Source: Paenibacillus donghaensis (GTDB lineage Bacteria > Bacillota > Bacilli > Paenibacillales > Paenibacillaceae). From it: DNA of 64,000 bases. The stretch lies in contig NZ_CP021780.1 of NCBI RefSeq assembly GCF_002192415.1, forward strand, positions 1,860,001 to 1,924,000, read 5' to 3'. Below, piece after piece: positions 1,086 through 61,005 of this stretch. Numbering within the stretch: position 1 is the first letter of the stretch; the number at the start of each line of letters is the position of its first letter. Below the pieces are notes generated by a model, which saw only the letters and a list, made by a program, of their open reading frames with translations, was not told the origin of the DNA and did not search any database. The translations under genes were made by a program, and so were the position numbers.

Positions 1086-1170
1086 TGGCTTATTCCGGCT
1101 ACTACTTAGGTTCCAGGGAGAATTTAGAGGGTTGCTTGGGACGTTTGGAGCAATTTTAGAAGCGAAGGTG

Positions 1171-1478
1171 GTTACTACTTAGGACTCCTTATAAAAAGAT
1201 TTACGCAGATTCTGTCCCATCTTTAGGGAGCCGAACAATTAGTTGCGAAACTGCATCTATTTAACCGATTTTTTCTGTTTTGGAGGAAATAAGTGCGAAT
1301 ACGCATCTATTTTAGACTTTTGAGCGTTCTAGGAGTGATTTGCTCGAAATTAGTTGCAGATTTGCACTTATTTGCCTGCTAATGGACGTTGCGGCTGAAT
1401 TTAGTTGCAGTTTCGCATCTAATTACTCGGAAGGCTCCAGGGCAGACTCTAAATCCTGGCTGGAACCTAAGTAGTAAC
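1171..1478. mobile_element. Short gene-less mobile element, copy E1 (A-type interior)
   Basis: The left end is GTTACTACTTAGG and the right end is CCTAAGTAGTAAC, a 13-bp terminal inverted repeat. The flanking 8-mers are CGAAGGTG (1163-1170) and TGAAAGTG (1479-1486), 6 of 8 identical, consistent with an eroded target duplication. Inside are four 20-bp dyads of the form TAGTTGC-N6-GCATCTA at 1240-1259, 1290-1309, 1351-1370 and 1402-1421, with different central bases. There is no plausible gene. The interior matches E2 (6096-6342) and E9 (20887). Another GCTACTACTTAGG end at about 1097 suggests older nesting. Confidence 0.7.
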
Positions 1479-1537: not shown

Positions 1538-2020
1538 GTTACTACTTAGGACCCGGGTCTCGATATAGGTTTGAACGTTCTAAGTCCAAAACCCGTCCTC
1601 CCTAAATCCGCAATTTCAAGTAACAGGGTCTGTAATGAGCATCCAAACTCTGATGTAAGTCCAAATGGGTATGTATTGTGGGGGCGACGTGTGTTTAGGG
1701 ATGTTTAGTGGTACTAACGGACTGCATAGCCTCTATATGGATGAAACAGGCTAATATTACGAATTAACGGACTGTATAGCCTGTATTGAGCTCAAAACCG
1801 CCGAATACAAGGGTGTTTGGAGCACATAAGGGCAGTATAGCCTGTATTGAGCTCAAAACCGCCGAATACAAGGGTGTTTGGAGCACATAAGGGCACTGGA
1901 GTCCGTAACTCCCGCAAAAGTGGCGTCAGCAGCGGAATAAGGGTATCAGAGTCCGTAATTCTCCGAAAGGTGCGCTAGCAATGAACTAGCGGTAGAAATT
2001 CCCTTTCTGGACCTAAGTAC
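1538..2020. mobile_element. Short gene-less mobile element, copy E7 (B-type interior, eroded right end)
   Basis: It begins GTTACTACTTAGGACCC directly after CAATTCTG (1530-1537) and ends near ACCTAAGTAC at 2011-2020. The right flank CATCTATT is the expected second half of the target dyad, but the right 8-mer (CCTTTTTG) no longer matches the left one. The interior carries several AACGGAC-N6-AGCC motifs in both orientations and a 61-bp tandem duplication. Its right-end sequence (ACTAGCGGTAGAA...) is shared with copy E6 at 21.8 kb. No gene is seen in it. Confidence 0.5.
1774..1895. repeat. Two exact tandem copies of a 61-bp unit
   Basis: The segment starting GTATAGCCTG at 1774 is repeated in full from 1835, ending GGGCA at 1895. 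The period is 61 bp and the copies appear identical. The unit includes part of the AACGGAC-N6-AGCC motif. Confidence 0.9.
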
Positions 2021-5930: not shown

Positions 5931-6095
5931 GTAAATATAAGAATTTATATGTGGCTCAAAACCAAAATCAGCGGTTGACCCCTTGTGAATGATGCCCGCT
6001 ACGGGTTAGGAGGGTTCTTCCGATCGCTGTTAAAGCCCGATTTCCTTATTGTAACCTGCAGATTCAGTTCCATGATAGTCTCATATGTCCAGTCC

Positions 6096-6342
6096 AAAGA
6101 ATTAGTTGCGAAACTGCATCTATTTAGCCGTTTTTTTCTGTGTTGGAGGAAATAAGTGCGAAAACGCACCTAATTTAGGATTTTGAGTGTAATAAGCTTG
6201 TTTTACTCGAATTTAGTTGCAGATATGCACTTATTATCCTGATAATGGGTGTCTCGGCTGAAATTAGTTGCAGTTTCGCATCTAATTCGACCGACGATTC
6301 CAGGGCAACACTCTAAATCCTGGCTGAATCCTAAGCAGTAAC
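6096..6342. repeat. A-type repeat block E2 (left end missing)
   Basis: This is a diverged direct copy of the interior of E1: the same four dyads (TAGTTGC-N6-GCATCTA type) occur in the same order with the same spacing. It ends with CCTAAGCAGTAAC at 6330-6342. No GTTACTACTTAGG left end is present; the sequence to the left (5931-6095) is unrelated spacer with nothing recognisable. Confidence 0.6.
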
Positions 6343-6352
6343 GAAATGTGAG

Positions 6353-6390
6353 AATAAGCCACTCTTCCTATAGCGGAAGAGTGGCTTATT
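6353..6390. terminator. Orphan 16-bp perfect hairpin
   Basis: AATAAGCCACTCTTCC (6353-6368) and GGAAGAGTGGCTTATT (6375-6390) are perfectly complementary around a 6-base loop. It looks like a bidirectional terminator but sits almost 500 bases from the nearest gene end, just outside repeat block E2. Confidence 0.6.
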
Positions 6391-15393: not shown

Positions 15394-15717
15394 GTGAGGA
15401 GTGACGAGTGACGAGTGACGAGAGCACAAAGTGCATAGAGCAAAGGTCGAAGTGCAAAGTGCATAGGGCAAAGGTTGAAGTGCAAAGTGCATAGGACGAA
15501 GGTTGAAGTGAAAAGTGCATAGGACGAAGAGCGTAGAGCAAAGGTCGAAGTGCAAAGTGCATAGGACGAAGAGCAAAGCGGGAATAGAGCTGGGTGCTAA
15601 GAGCCGAGTGCTAAGAGCTAGAAGCTGAGTGCTGAATGCTGAATGCTGAATGCAGAGTGCTAAGAGCCAAGAGCCAAGAGCCAAGAGCCAAGAGCCAAGA
15701 GCCAAGAGCCAAGAGCT
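15394..15717. repeat. Degenerate heptanucleotide tandem array (about 46 units)
   Basis: The whole segment reads in one 7-base phase: GTGAGGA, three GTGACGA, a long mixed run dominated by AAGTGCA and TAGGACG-type units, three CTGAATG, then seven perfect AAGAGCC from 15662 to 15710. Phase is kept from 15394 to 15717 with no insertion or deletion. It lies in the spacer downstream of the FAD oxidoreductase and encodes nothing convincing on either strand. Confidence 0.9.
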
Positions 15718-15791
15718 AAGTTGCTGGTTCGCCCCAGCGGGTCGTTTAGAATGTTGCTCTGGAACGCTCGGAGTAAATAGATGCGAAACTG

Positions 15792-16090
15792 GTTAATACT
15801 TAGGACCCTGCGACACTCCAAGCCCCTTGAATTAGGTAACCTGCATTCTAGCGGACCGTATAGCCCCTATTTCCTCCTATCTGCGATCTTTTGACGTCTT
15901 ACGGACCGTATAGCCCCTAAGTCGTCAAAACAGGCTCTAAAGCGAGGGTTTTCTGTGATATAGCGGCTCCTGGGTCCGTTAATCCTGCAAAACGGCCTAT
16001 GTACAGCAAATAGAGGCTCCTGAGTCCGCAACCGTCTGAAATCGAAGCGAGGGTTACGAGCGAAGAGGGCTAGGGGACCTAAGTAGTAAC
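15792..16090. mobile_element. Short gene-less mobile element, copy E3 (B-type interior)
   Basis: It begins GTTAATACTTAGG and ends CCTAAGTAGTAAC. It is flanked by a perfect 8-bp direct repeat CGAAACTG at 15784-15791 and 16091-16098. Removing the element and one repeat restores the dyad TAGATG-CGAAACTG-CAACTA. The interior has AACGGAC-N6-AGCC motifs in both orientations. No gene is present. Confidence 0.85.
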
Positions 16091-16260
16091 CGAAACTGCA
16101 ACTAAATTCAGTCAAATCGCGAGCTAGTGGGCGAATAAGTGCTATTCTGAAACTAATTTCGAGTAAAACTGGTCTATTTCGCTCAGAAGTCCAAATTAGA
16201 TGCCTTTTTGCAACTATTTGCTCCAAAACGGTAAAATTTCGCAAATTAGATGCGTTTTCG

Positions 16261-16684
16261 GTTACTACTTAGGACCCTGCGAGGATATAGAAGGTTTACT
16301 TGCGAAGGTTAGGGATCGCACTACCGTAATCCAAACCCTCCCCACCCGAACTTCAGGTAACCTACGTCCTAACGGACCGTATAGCTCCTATTTCCTCATT
16401 TCTGCACTGGTTTGGAATGTAACGGACTGCATAGCCTCTATATCGGAAAAACAGGCCTTACCTAGTGGGTTTCGGCTTGAATAGGGGCTCCTGAGTCCGT
16501 TAGAGCTGCAAAACAGCCTTTGTACAGCAAATAGGGGCTCCTGAGTCCGTTAATAGTCTGAAAGTTAAGCGCTGGTTACCGGCGACAGCCTTCCTTTGTT
16601 ATGCTTAGCCTCCTTGTCGCGCGGTGTGGTATGACAGGCTCGGACGAGTAACACAAGGAACACAAGGGGGCTCTAAGTAGTAAC
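16261..16684. mobile_element. Short gene-less mobile element, copy E4 (B-type interior)
   Basis: It begins GTTACTACTTAGG and ends CTAAGTAGTAAC, flanked by a perfect 8-bp direct repeat CGTTTTCG at 16253-16260 and 16685-16692 within a TAGATG...CAACTA dyad. Four AACGGAC-N6-AGCC motifs lie inside, two in each orientation. It is nearly identical to E5 (21020-21442) in inverted orientation. Open frames inside it are not credible genes. Confidence 0.88.
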
Positions 16685-16778
16685 CGTTTTCGCAACTAAA
16701 TTTTCCGCGAGCGGCCCGGGTCCTAACCATGGACTGCATGGTCGCTTTTGTTTAGCCTGCCTCTAGTCCTCCAAGGAT

Positions 16779-16802
16779 AAAAGACCCCGCAGCGGGGGCT
16801 TG
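16779..16802 (-). terminator. Orphan terminator-like hairpin
   Basis: On the minus strand GCCCCCGC and GCGGGGTC form a tight stem followed by TTTT. No minus-strand gene ends here, so it may be a relic of a lost gene. Confidence 0.5.
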
Positions 16803-17350
16803 ATACATTAACTCGTGACTCTATAGTCACCGGTATGCCATTGCAATCACAGTATCGCTGCCGCCGCTTAGCTGTTGTTTAATGTGGTCGCGCTAACTAC
16901 CATATGCTGCTCTCGCCGCTGCTGGTGATTAGTGGTTGCTATTGCTGCTGTTTTTCCCTACGCCTGTTGCGGACCGTATAGCCTTTTGGAGTAATATAGT
17001 CATTTTGGAGGGTTTAACGGATGCATGGCTCTTATTGATGTGTTTTGCGCCCCAAAGTGAGCGTTTGGGAGTAAATAGGATCGTCTGAGTCCGTTAGCCG
17101 GTTAAAAAGTGTGTAAATCAGCACACTAAGGTCTCCTGAGTCCGCTCGGCCCAGAGTAGTTACTCCTTCGTTCGTTCGTCCCCACCGCCATCTGCGTCGC
17201 CTGCCTTGCCCGTTTGCTCCTACCGTTCGTGATCTCGCAGCAGAGCATATAGGGCGAAGGGGCTAGAAGGCGTCTATAGGATATGTGATGAAGTTAGTAT
17301 GTGTTGGTACAGAAGAAGTCATGCAATGTCTTGCAGGGACGGGCAAAAGC
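16803..17350. other. Spacer upstream of gldA with scattered repeat motifs
   Basis: No gene is seen. Degenerate AACGGAC/GTCCGTTA motifs occur at about 16970-17145, resembling the interior of the E elements but without terminal repeats. Confidence 0.5.
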
Positions 17351-17355
17351 TGGCG

Positions 17356-17383
17356 GGACAAACAGGATAATTATCCTTATAAT
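17356..17383 (+). promoter_or_regulatory. Putative promoter of gldA
   Basis: GGACAA (17356-17361) and a consensus TATAAT (17378-17383) are separated by 16 bases, 40 bases upstream of the gldA start. Confidence 0.45.
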
Positions 17384-17422
17384 GGGAGGGTGAGGATAGA
17401 TACATAAGGAGGTCTTGCGGTT

Positions 17423-18526
17423 ATGGTGCAGGTAATTTATTCACCGTCCAGATATATTCAGGGCGGCGGAGAGCTTCACAAGCTGGGCAATTATTGTAAG
17501 CAGCTGGGGGCGAAGCAGGCGTATGCGATTGTAGATCCATTTATTCTGTCAGGCCATAGGGAGGCTATTGCCGCCAGCTTCGCCGAATGTTCAATTCCGC
17601 TGGAGCTGACAGCAATGCAGGGAGAGTGCAGCCGGGTTCAGGCCGAAGCCATGATTGCTGCTGTGGAGCTGGATCACGTAGATATCATTCTAGGTATCGG
17701 CGGCGGCAAAACAATGGATATGGCCAAGGCCGTCAGCGAATTTGCGGTGCTGCCGGTTATAGTTGTACCGACGGCTGCATCCACGGATGCGGCCTGCAGC
17801 GCTTTGTCCGTTCTGTACACCGAGGCAGGAGATTTCGACCGCTACCTTCCTCTGACCCGCAGTCCGGCTGCCGTCATTGCTGACACTTCGCTCATCGCCA
17901 AGGCGCCGCCCCGGCTGCTTGCCGCAGGGATGGGGGATGCGTTGTCTACCTTTTACGAGGCCAGAGCTTGTCACGCGTCCGGCGCACTCACTTCAGCAGG
18001 TGGTACCGGGTCCATTGCCGCATTAGCCCTTGCCCGCGCGTGCCGTGATACCTTGTTCCTGTACGGTGAAGCGGCGCTGAGTGATGTACGTGCTGGCGTA
18101 TGTTCTCTGGCCGTGGAGCATATTGTTGAAGCGAATATTTACCTAAGCGGCATCGGTTTCGAGAGCGGAGGACTGGCGGCGGCGCACGCTGTTCACAACG
18201 GCTTATCGGTGCTGGAAGAATGCCGTGGGAAGCTGCACGGGGAGAAGGTGGCTTTCGCCACCATCGTCCAGCTTGTGCTAGAGCGGGCAGCGGAGGAGGA
18301 GATCGCCGAAGCTATCCTATTCTGCCGCAGCTTAGGGCTTCCGGTTACATTGCAGGAGCTGGGGCTTGAGGGCATCAGTGTCGACAAGCTGCGGCTGGCA
18401 GCGGCAGCCAGCTGCGCTGAGGATAGCCCGATGGGCAACATGCCGTTTCGGGTGGAGCCGGAGGATGTGCTGGCTGCCATTATAGCGGCGGACAAGCGGG
18501 GCATGGAGACAGCAGGCTCATCGTAA
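17423..18526 (+). CDS. gldA: Glycerol dehydrogenase
   Basis: A 367-residue iron/zinc-type alcohol dehydrogenase, the normal GldA length; it oxidises glycerol to dihydroxyacetone with NAD+. Visible family marks are the NAD-binding loop GIGGGKTMDMAKAVSE, the STDAACSALSVLY segment, the first metal ligand Asp in AAGMGDALSTFYEA, and the His ligands in GFESGGLAAAHAVHNGL and KLHGEKVAFATIVQLVL. AAGGAGGTC sits before the ATG and a TATAAT promoter lies 40 bases upstream. The gene stands alone between inverted copies of the repeat element E4/E5. Confidence 0.93.
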   Translation: MVQVIYSPSRYIQGGGELHKLGNYCKQLGAKQAYAIVDPFILSGHREAIAASFAECSIPLELTAMQGECSRVQAEAMIAAVELDHVDIILGIGGGKTMDMAKAVSEFAVLPVIVVPTAASTDAACSALSVLYTEAGDFDRYLPLTRSPAAVIADTSLIAKAPPRLLAAGMGDALSTFYEARACHASGALTSAGGTGSIAALALARACRDTLFLYGEAALSDVRAGVCSLAVEHIVEANIYLSGIGFESGGLAAAHAVHNGLSVLEECRGKLHGEKVAFATIVQLVLERAAEEEIAEAILFCRSLGLPVTLQELGLEGISVDKLRLAAAASCAEDSPMGNMPFRVEPEDVLAAIIAADKRGMETAGSS

Positions 18527-18670
18527 GAGCGGTACCGGAACAGGGCAGGTTGCTTCTACTTAACATCGGGAGGGCTTATTGTTAATAATTGCGCTGGCCG
18601 GCGGGTACATATTTATCCTTCATGATCCCAACAATGAGAGCAAGGATTACACATGAAGGAGGAGAAGCGT

Positions 18671-19558
18671 ATGCTGCACAGCTGCTCGAGAATGAAACGT
18701 GACAGTTTGTTGGCTCTGATTGCCCTGCTGATCGTTACAGTGCCTGGCGGTTCTTCCGCTGCCGCCCGATCTGCGGCTGTCCCTGCCGCCAGCGGACATC
18801 ACGCCGCCGAAGGCATTCAAGGCCAAACAGATTCGCGGGTTAAAGACAGCAGAACCCGCCGTGTGGCCCTGATCATTGATGATTTCGGCAACGGGATGAA
18901 AGGGACGGACGAGATGTTTGATCTGCCGGTGAAGATTACGGTTGCAATCATGCCATTCCTGTCCACGACGGAGCAGGATGCGCGCCGTGCACATGAACGC
19001 GGCTTCGATGTACTGCTTCATCTGCCGATGGAGCCGCGTCACGGCAAGCCGCAATGGTTGGGGCCGGGAGCGGTGCTGGCGAACATGAGCGATGCCGAAA
19101 TCCGCCAGCGGGTGCAAGCCGCGCTGGATAATGTCCCTTATGCGATTGGCATCAACAATCATATGGGCTCCAAGGTGACAGGGGACAAACGGATCATGGG
19201 TATCGTACTGGCGGTGTGCAAGGAGCGGGGACTTTTTTTTGTGGACAGCCGCACCAATTACCGTTCCGTCGCCGGGACCATGGCGGAAGCAAGCGGACTG
19301 CCGCGTGTGGAGAATGATATCTTTCTGGATGATGTCCACACCACCCAGCATGTGCTTAAGCAGATGCTTCTGGTCGGCGAGCATGCCCAGAAGCACAGGT
19401 ATTGCGTTACCATCGGCCATGTAGGCATCCAAGGCAAAGTAACCGCCGCAGGCATCCGCGGCGGCATTGCAGAACTGAAGGACCAAGTTGAATTCATCGG
19501 TATCTCGGAACTGGTCAAGGCGGAGTGGAACTGGAGCGCCGGTCCTACACTTCCATAA
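18671..19558 (+). CDS. Divergent polysaccharide deacetylase family protein (YibQ-like)
   Basis: A 295-residue exported protein. MKRDSLLALIALLIVTVPGG is a signal peptide, cleaved probably near SSAAARSA. The mature part has the divergent deacetylase core: RVALIIDDFGNGMKGTDEMF with the catalytic DD pair, VTVAIMPFL-type strand, LLHLPMEP with its His, NNHMGSKVT and FFVDSRTNYRS. The fold is that of NodB-type carbohydrate esterases, though enzymatic activity of YibQ proteins is not well established. The start at 18671 follows AAGGAGGAG; the ATG at 18653 overlaps that site. It converges with the amidase gene, their ends overlapping by 14 bases. Confidence 0.85.
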   Translation: MLHSCSRMKRDSLLALIALLIVTVPGGSSAAARSAAVPAASGHHAAEGIQGQTDSRVKDSRTRRVALIIDDFGNGMKGTDEMFDLPVKITVAIMPFLSTTEQDARRAHERGFDVLLHLPMEPRHGKPQWLGPGAVLANMSDAEIRQRVQAALDNVPYAIGINNHMGSKVTGDKRIMGIVLAVCKERGLFFVDSRTNYRSVAGTMAEASGLPRVENDIFLDDVHTTQHVLKQMLLVGEHAQKHRYCVTIGHVGIQGKVTAAGIRGGIAELKDQVEFIGISELVKAEWNWSAGPTLP

Positions 19559-20312
19559 GATATGCGATGATGCCATCGGCTATCGCCTCGGCAATCCGCT
19601 GCTGGCCCTTCGAGCTGCACAGCTGGGCCCGGTCGACTGGGCTGCTGATGAAACCCGCCTCGACAATTACTGTTGGGGCGGTTATTTTGTTGAGCAGATA
19701 GAACGGCTTGCCTGGTCTGGTCAAGGCGTCCGTCTGATAAAGACGGTTCAGCTGTTCTTGCAGCGACTGGGCCAGTAGAAAGCTGCGGCCTTCCTGTCGG
19801 TAGAGCACCAGGGGACCGTGCTTCGCAGGTGAAGGCGCCCAGTTGATGTGGATACTAACCACCACCGCTGCCTGAATCGTCTCGGCCAGCTCCTTGCGCT
19901 GGGCCAAATCCCGCATATGGCGGGAGGAGCTGCGCAGCCAGCGGTTGTCGTCGCTGGGCGCATAGTCGCCAAGCCGGTTCAGAATGGCGCCGAAGCCGTC
20001 ACTGCGCAGCATCAGGAACAGCTTGCGCGAGATCCCCAGCGTAATATCCTTCTCCAGAATGGAGCCATAGGAGGTACCGCCGTCAATCCCGCCATGTCCG
20101 GCGTCGATCAGAATCATCCGCTGGTCATGCCCCAGCAGATGCTGCCGTTCCGCCGGGACTGCGCCGGTACTGGGCGGAACGCCCGCCCCCTGGGCATAAC
20201 CCGCTGACAGCAGCCAGCCGGCTGCGGCCAATCCGGGCAGAAGGCAACGCAGAAGTCTGCGCCAGGGTGAAGCAGCCGGTATAATCCGGCAGAGCAAGAT
20301 CTTTTTCAACAA
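19545..20312 (-). CDS. N-acetylmuramoyl-L-alanine amidase (CwlD-like)
   Basis: A 255-residue Amidase_3 enzyme that would cleave the peptide stem from MurNAc in peptidoglycan. The zinc ligands are visible: His in LIDAGHGGIDGG, Glu in ILEKDITLGIS, His in VVSIHINW; the catalytic Glu is in PTVIVEAGFIS. The N-terminus (LLRCLLPGLAAAGWLLSAGY) is a signal or membrane anchor. The length fits CwlD, which makes muramic lactam in spore cortex. The start is a TTG at 20312, eight bases after GGGGAGG; this places it outside the ATG frame that overlaps it. yqzE is divergent from it. Confidence 0.9.
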   Translation of the reverse strand: MLKKILLCRIIPAASPWRRLLRCLLPGLAAAGWLLSAGYAQGAGVPPSTGAVPAERQHLLGHDQRMILIDAGHGGIDGGTSYGSILEKDITLGISRKLFLMLRSDGFGAILNRLGDYAPSDDNRWLRSSSRHMRDLAQRKELAETIQAAVVVSIHINWAPSPAKHGPLVLYRQEGRSFLLAQSLQEQLNRLYQTDALTRPGKPFYLLNKITAPTVIVEAGFISSPVDRAQLCSSKGQQRIAEAIADGIIAYLMEV

Positions 20313-20478
20313 TCATCGAACCTCCCCACATATTATTCACGATTAGGTTGCGCTGCAAGAGGACAACCTATACGAAATAAACGCTCATAGTTTAGCGGCC
20401 GGCTTAACGGTGCACACTAAGAATAAATATCGATGGAGCTTAAGCAGCAAGTGGGAATGAATAAGAGGAGGTGGCCTT

Positions 20479-20667
20479 ATGGCTTCCGGTGGAGATGAGC
20501 TGGTGAAATACATTACGGAAAAAGTGGTTGTATATATAGAAGATCCGCGTGGCAGGCATGCGCGCAGAGAGGCTGTCAAGCAGCCTTGGTCACAGCGATG
20601 GTTCGGCATGCTCCCGCTGGGCTGGTCACTTTGGTGCAGAAAGTGGATGGGCAGATTAAAGAGGTAG
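20479..20667 (+). CDS. yqzE: YqzE family protein
   Basis: A 62-residue basic protein. The family pattern is visible: DELVKYITEKVVVYIEDPR at the N-terminus, a run of Arg/Lys, then WSQRWFGMLPLGWSLW near the C-terminus. In Bacillus yqzE lies by the comG competence genes and its function is unknown; here the competence genes are not in the window. GAGGAGGTGG precedes the ATG, so translation is well supported. Confidence 0.8.
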   Translation: MASGGDELVKYITEKVVVYIEDPRGRHARREAVKQPWSQRWFGMLPLGWSLWCRKWMGRLKR

Positions 20668-20886
20668 CCGTTTATTCACTGAACGTACAACAGGGCAGCA
20701 CCGTGTGAATGGGTTGTTAAGCGGACGGATCAAGGTAAGGAGATTTTCGGGAGCAGCAAGAGTATTTGCTCAAAAGGCATCTAATTTCGCCGCTTATGCA
20801 CGCTTTACATTTGCAGAGAGATGGTTAAACAGAATGAGCACTTTACCACTTACAGCTTCATCAGGCCGGAATAATTGTAGAAACTG

Positions 20887-21553
20887 GTTACTGCTTAGGT
20901 CTCCTTATAATAAGAATTATACCGACTTTGTTACCTAATTAGGGAGCCAATCCATTAGTTGCGAAACTGCATCTAATTAGCCTATTATTTCCGTTTTGGA
21001 GGAAATAAGTGCGAATACGGTTACTACTTAGGCCCCCTTGTGTTCCTTGTGTTACTCGTCCGAGCCTGTCCTACCACACCGCGCGACAAGGAGGCTAAGT
21101 ATAACAAAGGAAGGCTGTCGCCGGTAACCAGCGATTAACTTTCAGACTATTAACGGACTCAGGAGCCTCTATTTACTGAAAAAAGGCTGTTTTGCAGTTC
21201 TAACGGACTCAGGAGCCCCTATTCAAGCCGAAACCCACTAGTTAAGGCCTGTTTTTCCGATATAGAGGCTATGCGGTCCGTTACATTCCAAACCAGCGCA
21301 GAAATGAGGAAATAGGAGCTATACGGTCCGTTAGGACGTAGGTTACCTGAAGTTCGGGTGGGGAGGGTTTGGATTACGGTAGTGCGATCCCTAACCTTCG
21401 TAAGTAAACCTTCTATATCCTCGCAGGGTCCTAAGTAATAGCCGAATACGCATCTATTTTGGACATTTGAACGCTTCAGGTGTGATTTACTTGAAATTAG
21501 TTGCAGATTCGCACTTATTCGGCTGATATCTAGCAATTTGGATTGCACTTTCG
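20887..21553. mobile_element. Short gene-less mobile element, copy E9 (A-type), carrying E5 and cut by E6
   Basis: It starts GTTACTGCTTAGGTCTCC and follows the E1 sequence. E5 is inserted in its second TGC-N6-GCA dyad and E6 in its fourth, so only the parts at 20887-21019 and 21443-21553 belong to it. Its right terminus is missing. No gene is present. Confidence 0.65.
21020..21442. mobile_element. Short gene-less mobile element, copy E5 (B-type), inverted relative to E4
   Basis: It begins GTTACTACTTAGG and ends CCTAAGTAATAGC. It is flanked by a perfect 8-bp duplication CGAATACG at 21012-21019 and 21443-21450. The corresponding uninterrupted site AAGTG-CGAATACG-CATCTA exists in E1 at 1291-1309. 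It is a near-identical inverted copy of E4. Confidence 0.88.
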
Positions 21554-21832
21554 GTTACTACTTAGGACCCCAGCCATCCCCAAGTAGGTTTGCACCTTCG
21601 GAGTAGTACAACAGAGGTGTCTATGGGGAAAAACTACCGTTAATACCTGGCTCATGCTCGATTGTCGTGGCTTATAGGGAAAAGTGACCACTACATCGTC
21701 CATTTAGGGCTTTTCGGAGCGGATAGGACTTCATTAGTGATAAAAATTCACTATCAGTTCACCAGAATGCCCAACTTTCGTCCAACTAGCGGTAGAATTT
21801 CCCTATCATTCCTCACTGGATAAGTAGTAATA
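21554..21832. mobile_element. Short gene-less mobile element, copy E6
   Basis: It begins GTTACTACTTAGGACCCC directly after CACTTTCG, in the fourth dyad of E9, and ends with TAAGTAGTAAT near 21830. A matching right duplication is absent. The right-end sequence resembles that of E7 at 1.98-2.02 kb. Confidence 0.55.
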
Positions 21833-21877
21833 CATCAAACAGCGCTTCCCAATAAGTGGGGAAGCGCTGTTTGGTGT
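21833..21877 (-). terminator. Strong hairpin, terminator of the minus-strand gene at 21913
   Basis: CATCAAACAGCGCTTCCC and GGGGAAGCGCTGTTTGGTG form a long stem around AATAAGT. On the minus strand it lies just after the stop of the anchored-protein gene and ends in GTTTGATGT. Confidence 0.7.
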
Positions 21878-21912
21878 ATGGTAAGGGTAAAGCGATCAAA
21901 GACAGCGGCAGC

Positions 21913-23037
21913 TTATTGCTCCTCCGGCGGCTGGAGCCGGAAGCCAACCACCGCTGGCCCTTGCAGCGGCAGCAGATGCAGGCTGCCGGCCTGCTGCAGC
22001 ACAGCCAGCGGCAGATAGCGCCTGCCGCCCGGCCCGGTGGCAGCGTACATCACCGCTGCGCTGACGGCAGGCTGCCCGGCGCCGGTGCTCCAGCGCTGCG
22101 AGCCGGTGATCATGAACGGCGAGCCCAGGCTGTCATTACGCCCGGCAGCTTGATAGGCCAGGCTTCCGCCAGGCGGAATGGCTGACACCAGCCGCTCGGC
22201 CATGGCAGCGCTAAGCTTGGGCGCCGACAGCCAGGAGAGGTCGGCATAGGGATCATCCGGTCCGCCGCTGCGGGTCGAGCGGACCGGGGCGGCATCCGGC
22301 TGGAAGCTGGTTATTGCCGGTGCAACCACTGTCTGCGCACCCAGCCTTTTAGCAGCCTCTTGTTCACCCCAAGGCAATACCTGAGGGACCGCAGCATGAA
22401 TGTATAAAGTTTCTGTACCAAGCTTTATTTTCCAGACTGGCAGCAAAGGGCCATAGAGAGCCGTTACGTCCAGCGTTCCCGAATAAGAGGAAGGAATAAG
22501 TGCGCTCTGCACCAGATAACGGCGCAGATCGGTCATGCTGTAAGGGAGGCCTTCGGTTCCGGCCCCGTATTCGCTTAGCACGTAGCCGCCATCGGCAGCA
22601 GCGGAAATAATCAGGTAGCCGACACGTTGCCCGCCGTTCATCACATTCACCAGCCAGCTGTGCGTGCCCGGCCCCAGCGGATAAGTCTCCAGCTGCGCGT
22701 TCTTCCAGCTGCTGAAGGGGGCATCAGCAGCCAGCTTGTCCACGCTGCTCCGGGCAAATTCCGCCGCAGTGGCAGGAGGCGCGACTGTTGCCAGCACCGG
22801 CCCGGAATCCGCCGCAGCGTTTGTGCTGAGCGTCGCTGTAGTTCCCGACCCTGTTGCAGACAGCTGCAGCGAGAAGCTAAGGCTTAACGCTGTCAATCCT
22901 GCGCAGAGCATCAGGGCAATCTTGCCCATGGGCAGGCGCTTCAGCCTATGCTTCCAGCTCTTGACGGTCCTCTCCTCCAGCACAGGTTGCGTCCCCCTCA
23001 CAGAACTGTACCCTCTCGTAGTTCTGTTCCCCTTCAT
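21913..23037 (-). CDS. Membrane-anchored protein of unknown function
   Basis: A 374-residue protein I cannot assign. A basic N-terminus (KSWKHRLKRLPMGK) precedes one transmembrane helix (IALMLCAGLTALSLSFSLQL), so most of the chain is outside the cell. The extracellular part starts with a Ser/Thr/Ala-rich linker and has several Gly/Pro-rich stretches; no catalytic motif stands out. I set the start at 23037 because AAGGTG lies eight bases upstream; the frame stays open to a GTG at 23112 without a ribosome site. It lies downstream of yqhG on the same strand after a 190-base gap. Confidence 0.6.
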   Translation of the reverse strand: MKGNRTTRGYSSVRGTQPVLEERTVKSWKHRLKRLPMGKIALMLCAGLTALSLSFSLQLSATGSGTTATLSTNAAADSGPVLATVAPPATAAEFARSSVDKLAADAPFSSWKNAQLETYPLGPGTHSWLVNVMNGGQRVGYLIISAAADGGYVLSEYGAGTEGLPYSMTDLRRYLVQSALIPSSYSGTLDVTALYGPLLPVWKIKLGTETLYIHAAVPQVLPWGEQEAAKRLGAQTVVAPAITSFQPDAAPVRSTRSGGPDDPYADLSWLSAPKLSAAMAERLVSAIPPGGSLAYQAAGRNDSLGSPFMITGSQRWSTGAGQPAVSAAVMYAATGPGGRRYLPLAVLQQAGSLHLLPLQGPAVVGFRLQPPEEQ

Positions 23038-47609: not shown

Positions 47610-49082
<1,473 letters not shown>

Positions 49083-58385: not shown

Positions 58386-61005
58386 GGTAGCAATAGGTAA
58401 GCCTTTGATACGATCTCCAGCTTTTCCCCTGCTCCACACGGAGCGTGCGAGTTTCCCCGCACTCCGCGTTCCCTCTAACAAAATGTACTAGATCATAAGT
58501 TCCTCGTTACTCATAGATTTGGGAAGGTTAGACTGGTTCTAGTCCGTATTTATTACGGTACTGATTGATTTTGATTTTCATCAAGTCAGTGATACCCCGT
58601 CTATTTATGAGTACTTCGATCGTCTCTTTGTGAGTATGGTGGATAAGCTCATATACCTCTTTGTGGAGAATGCGCAGATTGTTGAATTTGTCGCTTCCAC
58701 CGAGATATAATGGCATATAGTGGTGACAGTAGACGTCTGATGCGAAAAGATACATCCCTGTGATTTCGCATTTCCCCATCTTCATACTGTACCGACTTAT
58801 ACGATTATCCATATACTCCACACTCTGGCTCGGGATGCTGGATTCCATCAAAGAAAGTATTTCTTGACGTATATCCGGACGAAGCTTTTTGTATATTTGT
58901 TCTCTTCCTGCCGTTGTATAAAGTGAAAGACTTTGACTGAAGTTCATCGTGTTCTTTGTTTTCACGTTGGCAAGAGGATATAAGTATACACCTGCTACTT
59001 TGAACGTTCTGTAACCCCTGCTGTAGAATTTGTTGTATGTTGGTGGCGGGTTAGTAGGATGTTCGTATTTCCCGATTTGTTTCAGACGATTATACATGAA
59101 GGCTCGCAGGTCATAGGCAAGACGTGAGAACTCAACACTGACATGGGTTGCCCGACTGAAGTAGTTGTGGATTCCCAAAACAAAGCTATTAAAGAGTGCT
59201 GCATTTAGGGCAATTGGAGACGATCTCAACTTCTGAATGCGCTTTTTGGCTTCCATCTTGATCTTCTGCTTTTTGTTATTTCTAATGCCTGTATGCGCTA
59301 CTCTCTTTTCACCCTTTACATTCGCTCGGATCGTGAATCCTAGAAATTCAGATTCTCGCTTTCGTAAATTTACAATTTGCGATTTCTCTGGCGAAACTTC
59401 CAGTTTCAGACGATATTTTAAATAGGAAACGACAGCATGATACCACTTGTAGGCAGTCTTGTAGTCTCGACAGATGATTTTGAAGTCATCGGCGTAACGC
59501 ACCATATATCCTTCTTTGAGGGAAGTGCGATTTTTCGTATACAATTCACCACTTCTTGTCTTGTGAGGTTGAGTCAGGGGGAAGAATTCCCATTGACCAG
59601 CCACCCAATGATCCAAGTCATTGAGGACGACATTTGAAAGTAATGTCGACAACAGACCCCCTTGAGGTACACCCTTTGTAGGTATACCTTATCCATCGAT
59701 TTCTGCTTTCAGCATCTTGGAGATGCACGCTAACACCTTTCTATCCTGAATCCCCATGTTCCATAGCTGCTTCAATAGCAACGTGTGATTCACATTGTCG
59801 AAGAACCCCATGATGTCGATATCTACCACATAGTGCATTTGTGCCCGATTCACAAGAAATTGTATTCTTGCCATCGCGTGGTGTGTAGACCGTAGTGGTC
59901 TGAAACCATAACTATGTTTGTAGAAATGAGCCTCAGCTATGGGTTCAAGCACTTGCTTGAAGCATTGCTGAATGATTCGATCCAGTATACAAGGAATGCC
60001 GAGCGGTCGCCATTTTCCGTTGTCTTTTTCTATAAATTCCCGTCTGACTTTCTTAGGGCGATACCATTTTAGATTGTTTTGGATTTCACTTACTAGTTCA
60101 TCTTCGGACGATTTTTCAATGTCTGTGATGGTTTTTCCATCTGTTCCTGGCGTCTTTGATCCTTTATTCGATTTCATTGTTCGATAAGCCAGCCGAATAT
60201 TTTCTCTAGATGTGATTAGATCGTAGAGATGCGAGAAAGATTCATGATTGCCAGCTCTTTCGTGCAAATCTGTGAAAGGTTCCGTCATGCCGTAGTACTC
60301 CCAATTTCGCAAAGCTTGCACTGTGGCATCAATCCTTTTGAGGTGATGTTCCCACATTCTTACCCGACCGGCGCAATTCACGTTTGGAAAATGATCGTTC
60401 TTATCTGTTAGACTTGGGGCTGTTCTTCCACTCCCATTACAGGAGATTCATCAGTCGTGCCCCTGCCCTCACAAAGCTTAATGCATTTCGGCCCGTGCCT
60501 TATTGCAACCGTCTTGGGTAACAGCCCTTGTTGCGACGTGCCTTGCTTTCCAAGTCCCTTACAACCTAGCCTTTTTTTTTTTGTTCTGGACTTAGGTGCT
60601 TCCTCTGGGCCTGTGAGCAGGATGCCTCCTTAGTTTGGCATAGCGTATTTCATAGGGAAAATTTTTACTTTACGCCACTCACCCCATCGTAGGATGGTAC
60701 ATAAGTTTCCTTATGCTCTAACTATAGACCTGTACATTCGGAAGTTCGTCAGTTCTTTTCTATGAACATTCTCACCATATCCAGCTTTTCAGCCACGCGG
60801 CATATCCGTCAGCATACCTTTTCTATTCGAATGGCTCTAGCCTTTGTTCTGCCGAATCTACCTGTACTTCAAACCCCATAACCTGTCAGTCATGACGCAT
60901 GCAGGAGTATTGGTGGGATGGTTTCGGGATACATGGTTCCGTCATTCCCATCCTCGGTTGTAAAGTTAGGATTCTATGAGACTTTGAATCCCCTGTTTTT
61001 CGCAC
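58386..61005 (-). mobile_element. Group II intron
   Basis: A retroelement on the minus strand. The likely 5' end is GTGCGAAAAACAGGGG, beginning at 61005. The 3' end lies near 58386 after GGCTTACCTATTGCTACC (domain VI). A domain V hairpin at about 58431-58471 has the form CGCGGAGTGCGGGGAAACTC and CGCACGCTCCGTG. The stretch 60382-61005 is the structured 5' RNA (domains I-III) and encodes no protein. Boundaries are good to a few bases only. Confidence 0.75.
58528..60381 (-). pseudogene. ltrA: Group II intron-encoded protein (LtrA) with one internal stop
   Basis: The multifunctional intron protein (reverse transcriptase, maturase, HNH endonuclease), about 617 codons in one frame. The N-terminal part ends at a TAA at 59689-59691, exactly at AEIDG-stop-GIPTKGVPQGG, where the family has a Glu or similar residue; reading continues in the same frame. 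Downstream are the RT active site YMVRYADDFKIICRDYK, the maturase domain and an HNH motif (CEITGMYLFASDVYCHHYMP). RT0-4 precede the stop (KRIDATVQALR..., RPLGIPCILDRIIQQ). A single base change restores it. Confidence 0.9.

Follow-up and report, generated by a model that had tools for sequence, protein, structure and literature searches.

We analysed a 64,000-nucleotide stretch of Paenibacillus donghaensis DNA (contig NZ_CP021780.1, positions 1,860,001 to 1,924,000; hereafter the window), which contains short, gene-less mobile elements of the miniature inverted-repeat transposable element (MITE) kind. The initial annotation had described them by their 13-bp inverted ends and 8-bp target duplications, and our results support that description. 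What it had missed is that the duplicated 8-mers are the centres of a dispersed dyad, that elements are nested there, and that an array of four dyads also occurs without any element. We regard it as highly probable that these are IS66-type MITEs moved in trans, with a base-exact preference for the dyad centres of type-A copies and with nesting, and that the four-dyad array is a separate module read by a protein.

IS66-type miniature elements in the window

Each miniature family carries four dyads of ~20 bp at 50/61/50 bp, two forward and then two inverted. The B dyads (E3, E4 and E5) read approximately AACGGAC-N6-GCCYCTAT and the C dyads (E6) approximately TTARCGGT-N6-TCCCTAT, in the same layout as in type A. 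The boundaries and perfect 8-bp duplications of E3, E4 and E5 were confirmed, and both flanks were identical in each case. Other copies had been called eroded. Most of the apparent erosion is explained by nesting (E9, E6 and E7); the right duplication of E6 is missing, and E1 has intact ends and flanks that match at 6/8 positions. E9 is the host into which E5 and E6 inserted, and the right duplication of E6 is gone along with the right part of this host. The elements are as follows.

1171..1478, plus strand: E1, type-A MITE without interruption, 308 bp; TGC-N6-GCA dyads starting at 1244, 1294, 1355 and 1406
1538..1591, plus strand: E7, C-type left end; follows CAATTCTG in the dyad centre of an A fragment (1480-1537)
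15745..16715, minus strand: older type-A MITE remnant into which E3 and E4 inserted; matched by the profile at 15745-15791 and 16091-16260, with an approximate right limit
15784..15791, no strand: 8-bp duplication CGAAACTG to the left of E3, repeated at 16091-16098 on the right; forms the dyad 4 centre of the A copy that hosts E3
15792..16090, plus strand: E3, B1-type MITE, 299 bp; CGGAC at 15852 and 15902, GTCCG at 15974 and 16024 (four-dyad array)
16253..16260, no strand: 8-bp duplication CGTTTTCG to the left of E4, repeated at 16685-16692 on the right; forms the dyad 1 centre of the A copy that hosts E4
16261..16684, plus strand: E4, B2-type MITE, 424 bp; CGGAC at 16373 and 16423, GTCCG at 16495 and 16545
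20887..21553, plus strand: E9, type-A MITE host; segments 20887-21019 and 21443-21553, split by E5 and ending abruptly at E6
21012..21019, no strand: 8-bp duplication CGAATACG to the left of E5, repeated at 21443-21450 on the right; forms the dyad 2 centre of E9
21020..21442, minus strand: E5, B2-type MITE, 423 bp, orientation opposite to E4; CGGAC at 21154 and 21204, GTCCG at 21276 and 21326
21554..21830, plus strand: E6, C-type MITE; follows CACTTTCG at 21546-21553, where E9 has its dyad 4 centre; without right duplication

Immediately to the left of the E3/E4 cluster, at window positions 15600-15720, short near-tandem repeats were observed (gaatgctgaatgc..., agagccaagagcc...).

The 13-bp end, allowing two mismatches, occurs 14 times in the window compared with 0.83 in shuffles. 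The window's own genome (G000, a single contig of 8.54 Mb) holds 307 exact ends (142 + 165), with 0 + 0 in a backward control; at up to one mismatch the counts are 264 + 268, with 10 + 10 in the control. The exact end is present in 18 of 149 other genomes, with a maximum of six copies in any. A detailed sample consisted of G000 positions 1-1,200,000 and the window, 1.26 Mb in total or 14.8% of the genome. The sample holds 68 pairs of facing ends, separated by 60-2500 bp and with two or fewer mismatches per end. In 24 of these pairs the flanking 8-mers were identical at 7/8 positions or better, including 14 at 8/8. Seven outward offsets (1-32 bp) gave 0 each, and swapped partners gave a mean of 2.2 and a maximum of 7 in 200 shuffles. 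The copies are short (157-521 bp), have terminal inverted repeats (TIRs) and a target duplication, and lack an open reading frame (ORF); the exception is A, B or C copies that enclose another insertion sequence (IS). Together, A, B and C fragments make up 27 kb of the sample.

Intact IS66 elements with the same ends

A full-length element with the same ends and a transposase gene, which the initial annotation had suggested looking for as the implied helper, was found in G000 in three copies of ~1.6 kb. Six matches to PF03050 were found in this genome, and three of them are intact elements of 1602-1627 bp whose ends differ by 0 or 1 mismatch each. Their duplications are identical at 8/8 positions (CACTTTTG, CAAAAAGG and CGATATCG). 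Each has a single open frame of 509-518 codons and no space for more genes; all three frames carry PF03050, and two were scanned against all Pfam. Since there is one ORF and no room for tnpA/tnpB, the helpers have the ISBst12 arrangement. Two of the copies are 99.6% identical across 1603 bp, and hence IS66 activity looks recent.

In relatives, end pairs ~1.6 kb apart are IS66 elements as well. Four are intact, with no more than one mismatch in the ends and with perfect duplications, and a fifth, with a broken gene, has 7/8. Three of the relatives' frames (488-495 aa) match PF03050, DUF6444, zf-IS66 and NF033517. The helpers have the features of the ISBst12 group, namely an IS66 transposase domain, a single ORF without tnpA/tnpB, and an 8-bp duplication (three own and four relatives' copies). 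For ISDge4 of Deinococcus, a member of this group, the published description gives the ends GTGACTACTCAGCA / GTAACTGCTCAGCA, a transposase of 449 aa and a target duplication of 8 bp, CCTCGATG (PMC12898284). The earlier statement that no known element has these ends was not supported: they are the ends of ISBst12-group IS66 elements (three intact copies in G000, four in other species, and the published ISDge4).

Judged by their sequence, E3, E4 and E5 are miniature members of the ISBst12 group within the IS66 family. The G000 IS66 copies provide the autonomous element with the same ends that is expected for a MITE, and their transposases would mobilize the A, B and C MITEs in trans. No BLAST match of 60 bp or more was found between the IS copy in the sample and the MITEs. 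In one relative (G027, L050-L053), 184-bp MITEs have IS66-type ends and perfect 8-bp duplications in 3 of 4 cases, carry no array and lie outside dyads. A 1.7-kb stretch at G000 929946-931672 was considered as a second helper and rejected, as it is a C element that encloses a broken IS256-like gene (family judged by eye). At G000 499722-501267, a split A copy holds an IS4-like transposase gene (by eye).

Type-A dyads as a preferred insertion target

The duplicated 8-mers are the centres of the imperfect dyad TAGWTGC-N6-GCAWCTA or its TAAGTGC variant, and the duplicated part is C-N6-G. With a 6-bp centre, 125 A-type dyads were found in 1.2 Mb, and centre lengths of 2-5 and 7-12 gave 0 or 1 each. 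G000 has 376 such sites in total, versus 0-2 in 119 other genomes. They are grouped in fours at 50, 61 and 51 bp, and these groups make up the inside of the ~308-bp family A MITEs, of which E1 is an example. Outside A copies, 1 of the 125 dyads was found in the 1.2 Mb and none of 12 in the window.

A profile of A detected 85 fragments with 81 internal breakpoints in the sample. Thirty-six breakpoints abut a TIR (up to three mismatches), and all 36 are located at profile positions 92-99, 142-149, 203-210 and 254-261, which are the four dyad centres. The remaining 45, without an abutting TIR, are scattered, and nine of these are also in dyad centres. Seen from the ends, a strict A half-dyad adjoins 48 of 134 TIR ends and 34 of the 63 exact ones, versus 0.00033 per position by chance. 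All three intact IS66 copies of G000 are located in A-type dyads, and one of them has as its host a ~308-bp element, apparently an A copy, which in turn occupies an A-type dyad. On statistical grounds, insertion in this lineage prefers the centre of this dyad, where C-N6-G is duplicated.

The same nesting is seen in the window, where one A copy holds E3 in dyad 4 and E4 in dyad 1, and another (E9) holds E5 in dyad 2 and E6 in dyad 4. Paralogous empty sites are available for comparison: once one duplication is removed, the hosts align to E1 without a gap where E3, E4 and E5 are inserted (83% over 211 bp, and 76% over 225 bp with one gap elsewhere). Orthologous empty sites are beyond base-exact comparison, since even the closest orthologues of the flanking gene do not exceed 71% identity. 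Tandem "tails" of ~73 bp, which correspond to the type-A right end from dyad 4 outward, were observed at G000 48843-49075 and window 1093-1169. These would fit repeated insertion at dyad 4 and subsequent recombination between nested copies.

The four-dyad array with and without mobile elements

At least four array motif families are present in G000. In addition to those inside MITEs, eleven B and three C arrays either lack recognizable MITE ends or are in a degenerate context; their motifs and spacing are kept, and their spacers are unrelated. A motif-blind scan gave 74 hits, at least four of which are other repeats, and revealed a family D (TTCCTGC-N6-GCAGGAA) at seven places. High scores for 50/57/50 came from the same arrays read off-centre, and those for 45/61/45 came from tandem repeats. 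B sites were also searched singly. Among same-strand pairs separated by 20-130 bp, 22 of 23 in G000 and 7 of 15 in G001 had a spacing of 50 bp, and inverted pairs peaked at 76, 126 and 176 bp in both genomes. Of 103 arrays, 88 were non-redundant and gave the consensus cTAACGGAC-N6-GnC(G/C)(T/C)TATTT, in which five CGGAC bases are imposed by the array search itself. The spacers contain weak A-/T-tracts, and their sequence is unconserved while their length is fixed; outside the arrays there is almost no conservation. The other arrays and type-A sequences in the window are listed below.

1093..1169, minus strand: type-A right-end tail, profile 255-330
1759..1978, plus strand: degenerate B-motif array with one segment duplicated
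6056..6359, plus strand: type-A element with four dyads and a degenerate left end
16958..17146, plus strand: bare array of B motifs that lacks MITE ends and has a small deletion in one dyad

The pattern CGGAC-N45-CGGAC-N67-GTCCG-N45-GTCCG (up to one mismatch) was found in 68 of 149 other genomes, with up to 173 copies, and the backward control was zero in all. An exact scan of named genomes gave at least 119 stretches, 80 of them listed. Among the matches listed, the hosts are mostly Paenibacillus species, and Fontibacillus, Cohnella, Gordonibacillus and Anaerobacillus arseniciselenatis are also represented. Two contigs classed as viral (L162 and L163) have one exact array each. G001 has 24 arrays of at least three motif families in 400 kb, and G006 has no such array in 400 kb, where both hits were other repeats.

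The array is carried by different vehicles. In a genome of another genus (G134), it is present in each of the 17 distinct copies of a 284-bp MITE that were examined, and two longer pairs of the same ends (1.65 and 1.8 kb) enclose IS3-type genes (OrfB with rve and HTH_21; OrfA by eye). This MITE has perfect 6-bp duplications in 7 of 17 copies and is located at the centre of a CTAACGGAC-N6-GTCCGTTAG-like dyad in 9 of 17, versus 0.4% of random positions; the other eight fail the dyad-centre test, three of them by a one-base shift (by eye). In G003, 37 of 40 scored matches are at least 87% identical over at least 173 bp and represent a ~520-bp repeat with no TIR seen by eye. The right end of this repeat (L378-L407) is often beside a terminator-like A-run and hairpin (by eye). 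The arrays of G099 have hardly any flank conservation. In Paenibacillus sp. MAHUQ-63 (L223), arrays are in direct tandem with a 254-bp period (sites 2603, 2857, 3111 and 3365).

Other identities for the array were considered and rejected. Against a TIR transposon, no direct repeat recurred at a common offset around 86 bare arrays; 10-base inverted flanks were limited to the IS3-type MITE and one stray case. A search of ~890 kb of loci and the 1.26-Mb sample for an autonomous form, in which array halves separated by 200-8000 bp would enclose a gene, detected none, the sole matches being the sites of E3 and E4 near the bare array at 16958-17146. No gene was linked to the array, as the commonest Pfam family occurred in 3 of 104 scanned nearest ORFs (112 in total, 8 short ones dropped).

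Elsewhere in the window, the minus strand has Rfam group II intron matches at 58387-58471 and 60786-60970 (RF00029, domains 5-6 type; RF02004, D1-D4 type), which possibly belong to one intron or two.

Proposed mechanism and alternatives

In the mechanism that we propose, every new A copy would supply four insertion sites in non-coding DNA, and the A family would grow by self-nesting. The nested copies were observed directly, and positive feedback is suggested because each A insertion adds four targets in harmless DNA. The four-dyad array is a module of its own, riding in A, B and C MITEs, in the IS3-family MITE of another genus and in the ~520-bp repeat, with many copies bare. Its likeliest reader would be a sequence-specific DNA-binding protein, since the motif varies between array families and yet changes jointly in all four sites; assembly on all four sites is probable because the spacing is fixed. 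The strongest mutual information was mostly between the same positions of different repeats, including two same-strand repeats, which reflects identity and not complementarity, and this favours a sequence-specific protein over an RNA fold. We hypothesize that the reader protein, or the DNA at its site, may attract transposases.

Several points weigh against this joint reading. No tested half-dyad adjoins 77 of the 134 TIR ends, many of which belong to hosts or are loose matches. Of the 40 ends listed for relatives, not one abuts an A half-dyad (by eye; some places are double and some are chance 13-mers), and the array-less MITEs of G027 insert away from dyads. In the G000 sample, foreign TIRs were never adjacent to the boundary of a B or C fragment, and one end looks D-like. 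The mutual-information test ignores ancestry. Since neither the listed ends of relatives nor the G027 MITEs adjoin A half-dyads, the targeting is lineage-specific, and since the B and C boundaries have no foreign TIR, the array alone is not sufficient to make a target. The targeting is a property of this lineage and mainly of motif A.

One alternative is that the arrays are host nucleoprotein or chromosome-organizing sites, similar to bacterial interspersed mosaic elements (BIMEs), and that mobile elements exploit them or carry captured copies. The location of the arrays agrees with this: 20 of 20 bare arrays examined in G000 are intergenic, and in named genomes 4 of 69 arrays overlap an ORF, with divergent gene pairs under-represented (6 of 55; convergent, 20). 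The fixed geometry and joint motif change also suggest a function. However, within a single genus species carry anything between 0 and 173 copies, G006 has none in its 400 kb, and no neighbour gene recurs. A scan of 29 orthologues of the window's iron-containing alcohol dehydrogenase (Fe-ADH) gene detected no array, which is weak evidence, as the scan recovered the array of E4 in G000 and missed the degenerate bare array next to this gene. We consider this alternative rather unlikely.

We give no better chance to purely structural targeting, in which palindromes extrude or bend and different transposase families insert at the axis with no reader protein. Both IS66-type elements (8-bp duplication) and IS3-type elements (6-bp duplication) strike the dyad centre, and ISRm22 inserts at the axis of palindromy of a repetitive extragenic palindrome (REP) according to the available part of PMC1525189. 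On the other hand, A dyads with mismatched arms are targeted, whereas the perfect D palindromes are not clearly so (one D-like end among 134), and pairing within dyads showed no covariation above expectation.

It is very improbable that the arrays function as RNA, either as four hairpins or as a long fold-back transcript. The dyads can be drawn as stems with 6-nt loops, and sites 1-4 and 2-3 are inverted, but covariation links equal repeat positions, including those of same-strand repeats, and not stem partners; the spacers are unconserved but length-fixed. Rfam gave no relevant match to the MITEs or arrays on the window, nor at E<=1 on 15700-22000. Finally, a mere regional tolerance of insertions, with those in genes being lost, can practically be dismissed, since it cannot place 36 of 36 junctions in exact register on 32 of ~299 profile positions.

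A bacterial MITE family that bears the preferred target of its own transposition system would have a simple, gene-sparing way to multiply. The array is a widespread Paenibacillaceae repeat that was not found in the literature searched, and its strict geometry and joint motif change call for a DNA-binding factor. It is possible, though we would not call it probable, that these repeats represent a putative new class of dispersed element: a fixed-geometry array of four jointly evolving, predicted protein-binding dyads, carried in MITEs of unrelated transposases and serving as a self-supplied landing platform. On this reading, each insertion would make four new safe sites, and the several motif families would imply diverging cognate binding proteins.

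Comparison with known systems

Among the titles and abstract beginnings listed from the open-licence literature, we found nothing on IS66 MITEs such as these, on Paenibacillus array repeats or palindromic/intergenic repeats, or on REPINs and REP-associated tyrosine transposases (RAYTs) in Firmicutes. IS66 elements or MITEs are treated in PMC3189936 and PMC9769881 (excerpts). Like the IS66 ISBst12 group (ISDge4; ISBst12), the system has ends of the form GTNACTRCTYAG, an 8-bp duplication and a single-ORF transposase with PF03050. Unlike these IS, the MITEs have no ORF, and the preference for dyad centres in this lineage is not shared by any of the IS copies seen in relatives. Like bacterial MITEs such as MITEPsy1, as described in the excerpted PMC3189936, they are short and gene-less, with a target duplication and ends common to autonomous IS. 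They differ from MITEs of that type in that the interior is an array module common to unrelated elements, and in that the type-A interior is the favoured target of the same transposition system.

A REP/RAYT identity was unsupported. Many intergenic palindromic units were found, as is expected for REPs, but the arrays are two forward and then two inverted sites and not inverted REP doublets. No Y1 transposase (RAYT) was detected in 5 of 8 array-rich genomes searched (G001, G059, G052, G096 and G099). Y1 hits are present in G007, G003, G121 and G000 (in G000, four of 133 aa, IS200-sized, and a further one that is broken), where linkage to arrays was not examined.

Targeting of REPs is known for the IS3, IS110, IS4, IS256 and IS5 families from the part of PMC1525189 available. 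Like ISRm22, ISPsy8 and IS1397 in that source, the elements here insert base-exactly into a dispersed intergenic palindrome. Unlike them, they belong to IS66, a term absent from the excerpted text, and their target is carried by a mobile element itself. Like REPs, REPINs and BIMEs as outlined in excerpts of PMC2817692 and PMC3116915, the arrays are abundant intergenic imperfect palindromes with a higher-order arrangement and lineage-specific families. Unlike these, they combine four sites at a 50/61/50-bp spacing, of which two are forward and two inverted, and they occur within MITEs of DDE transposases.

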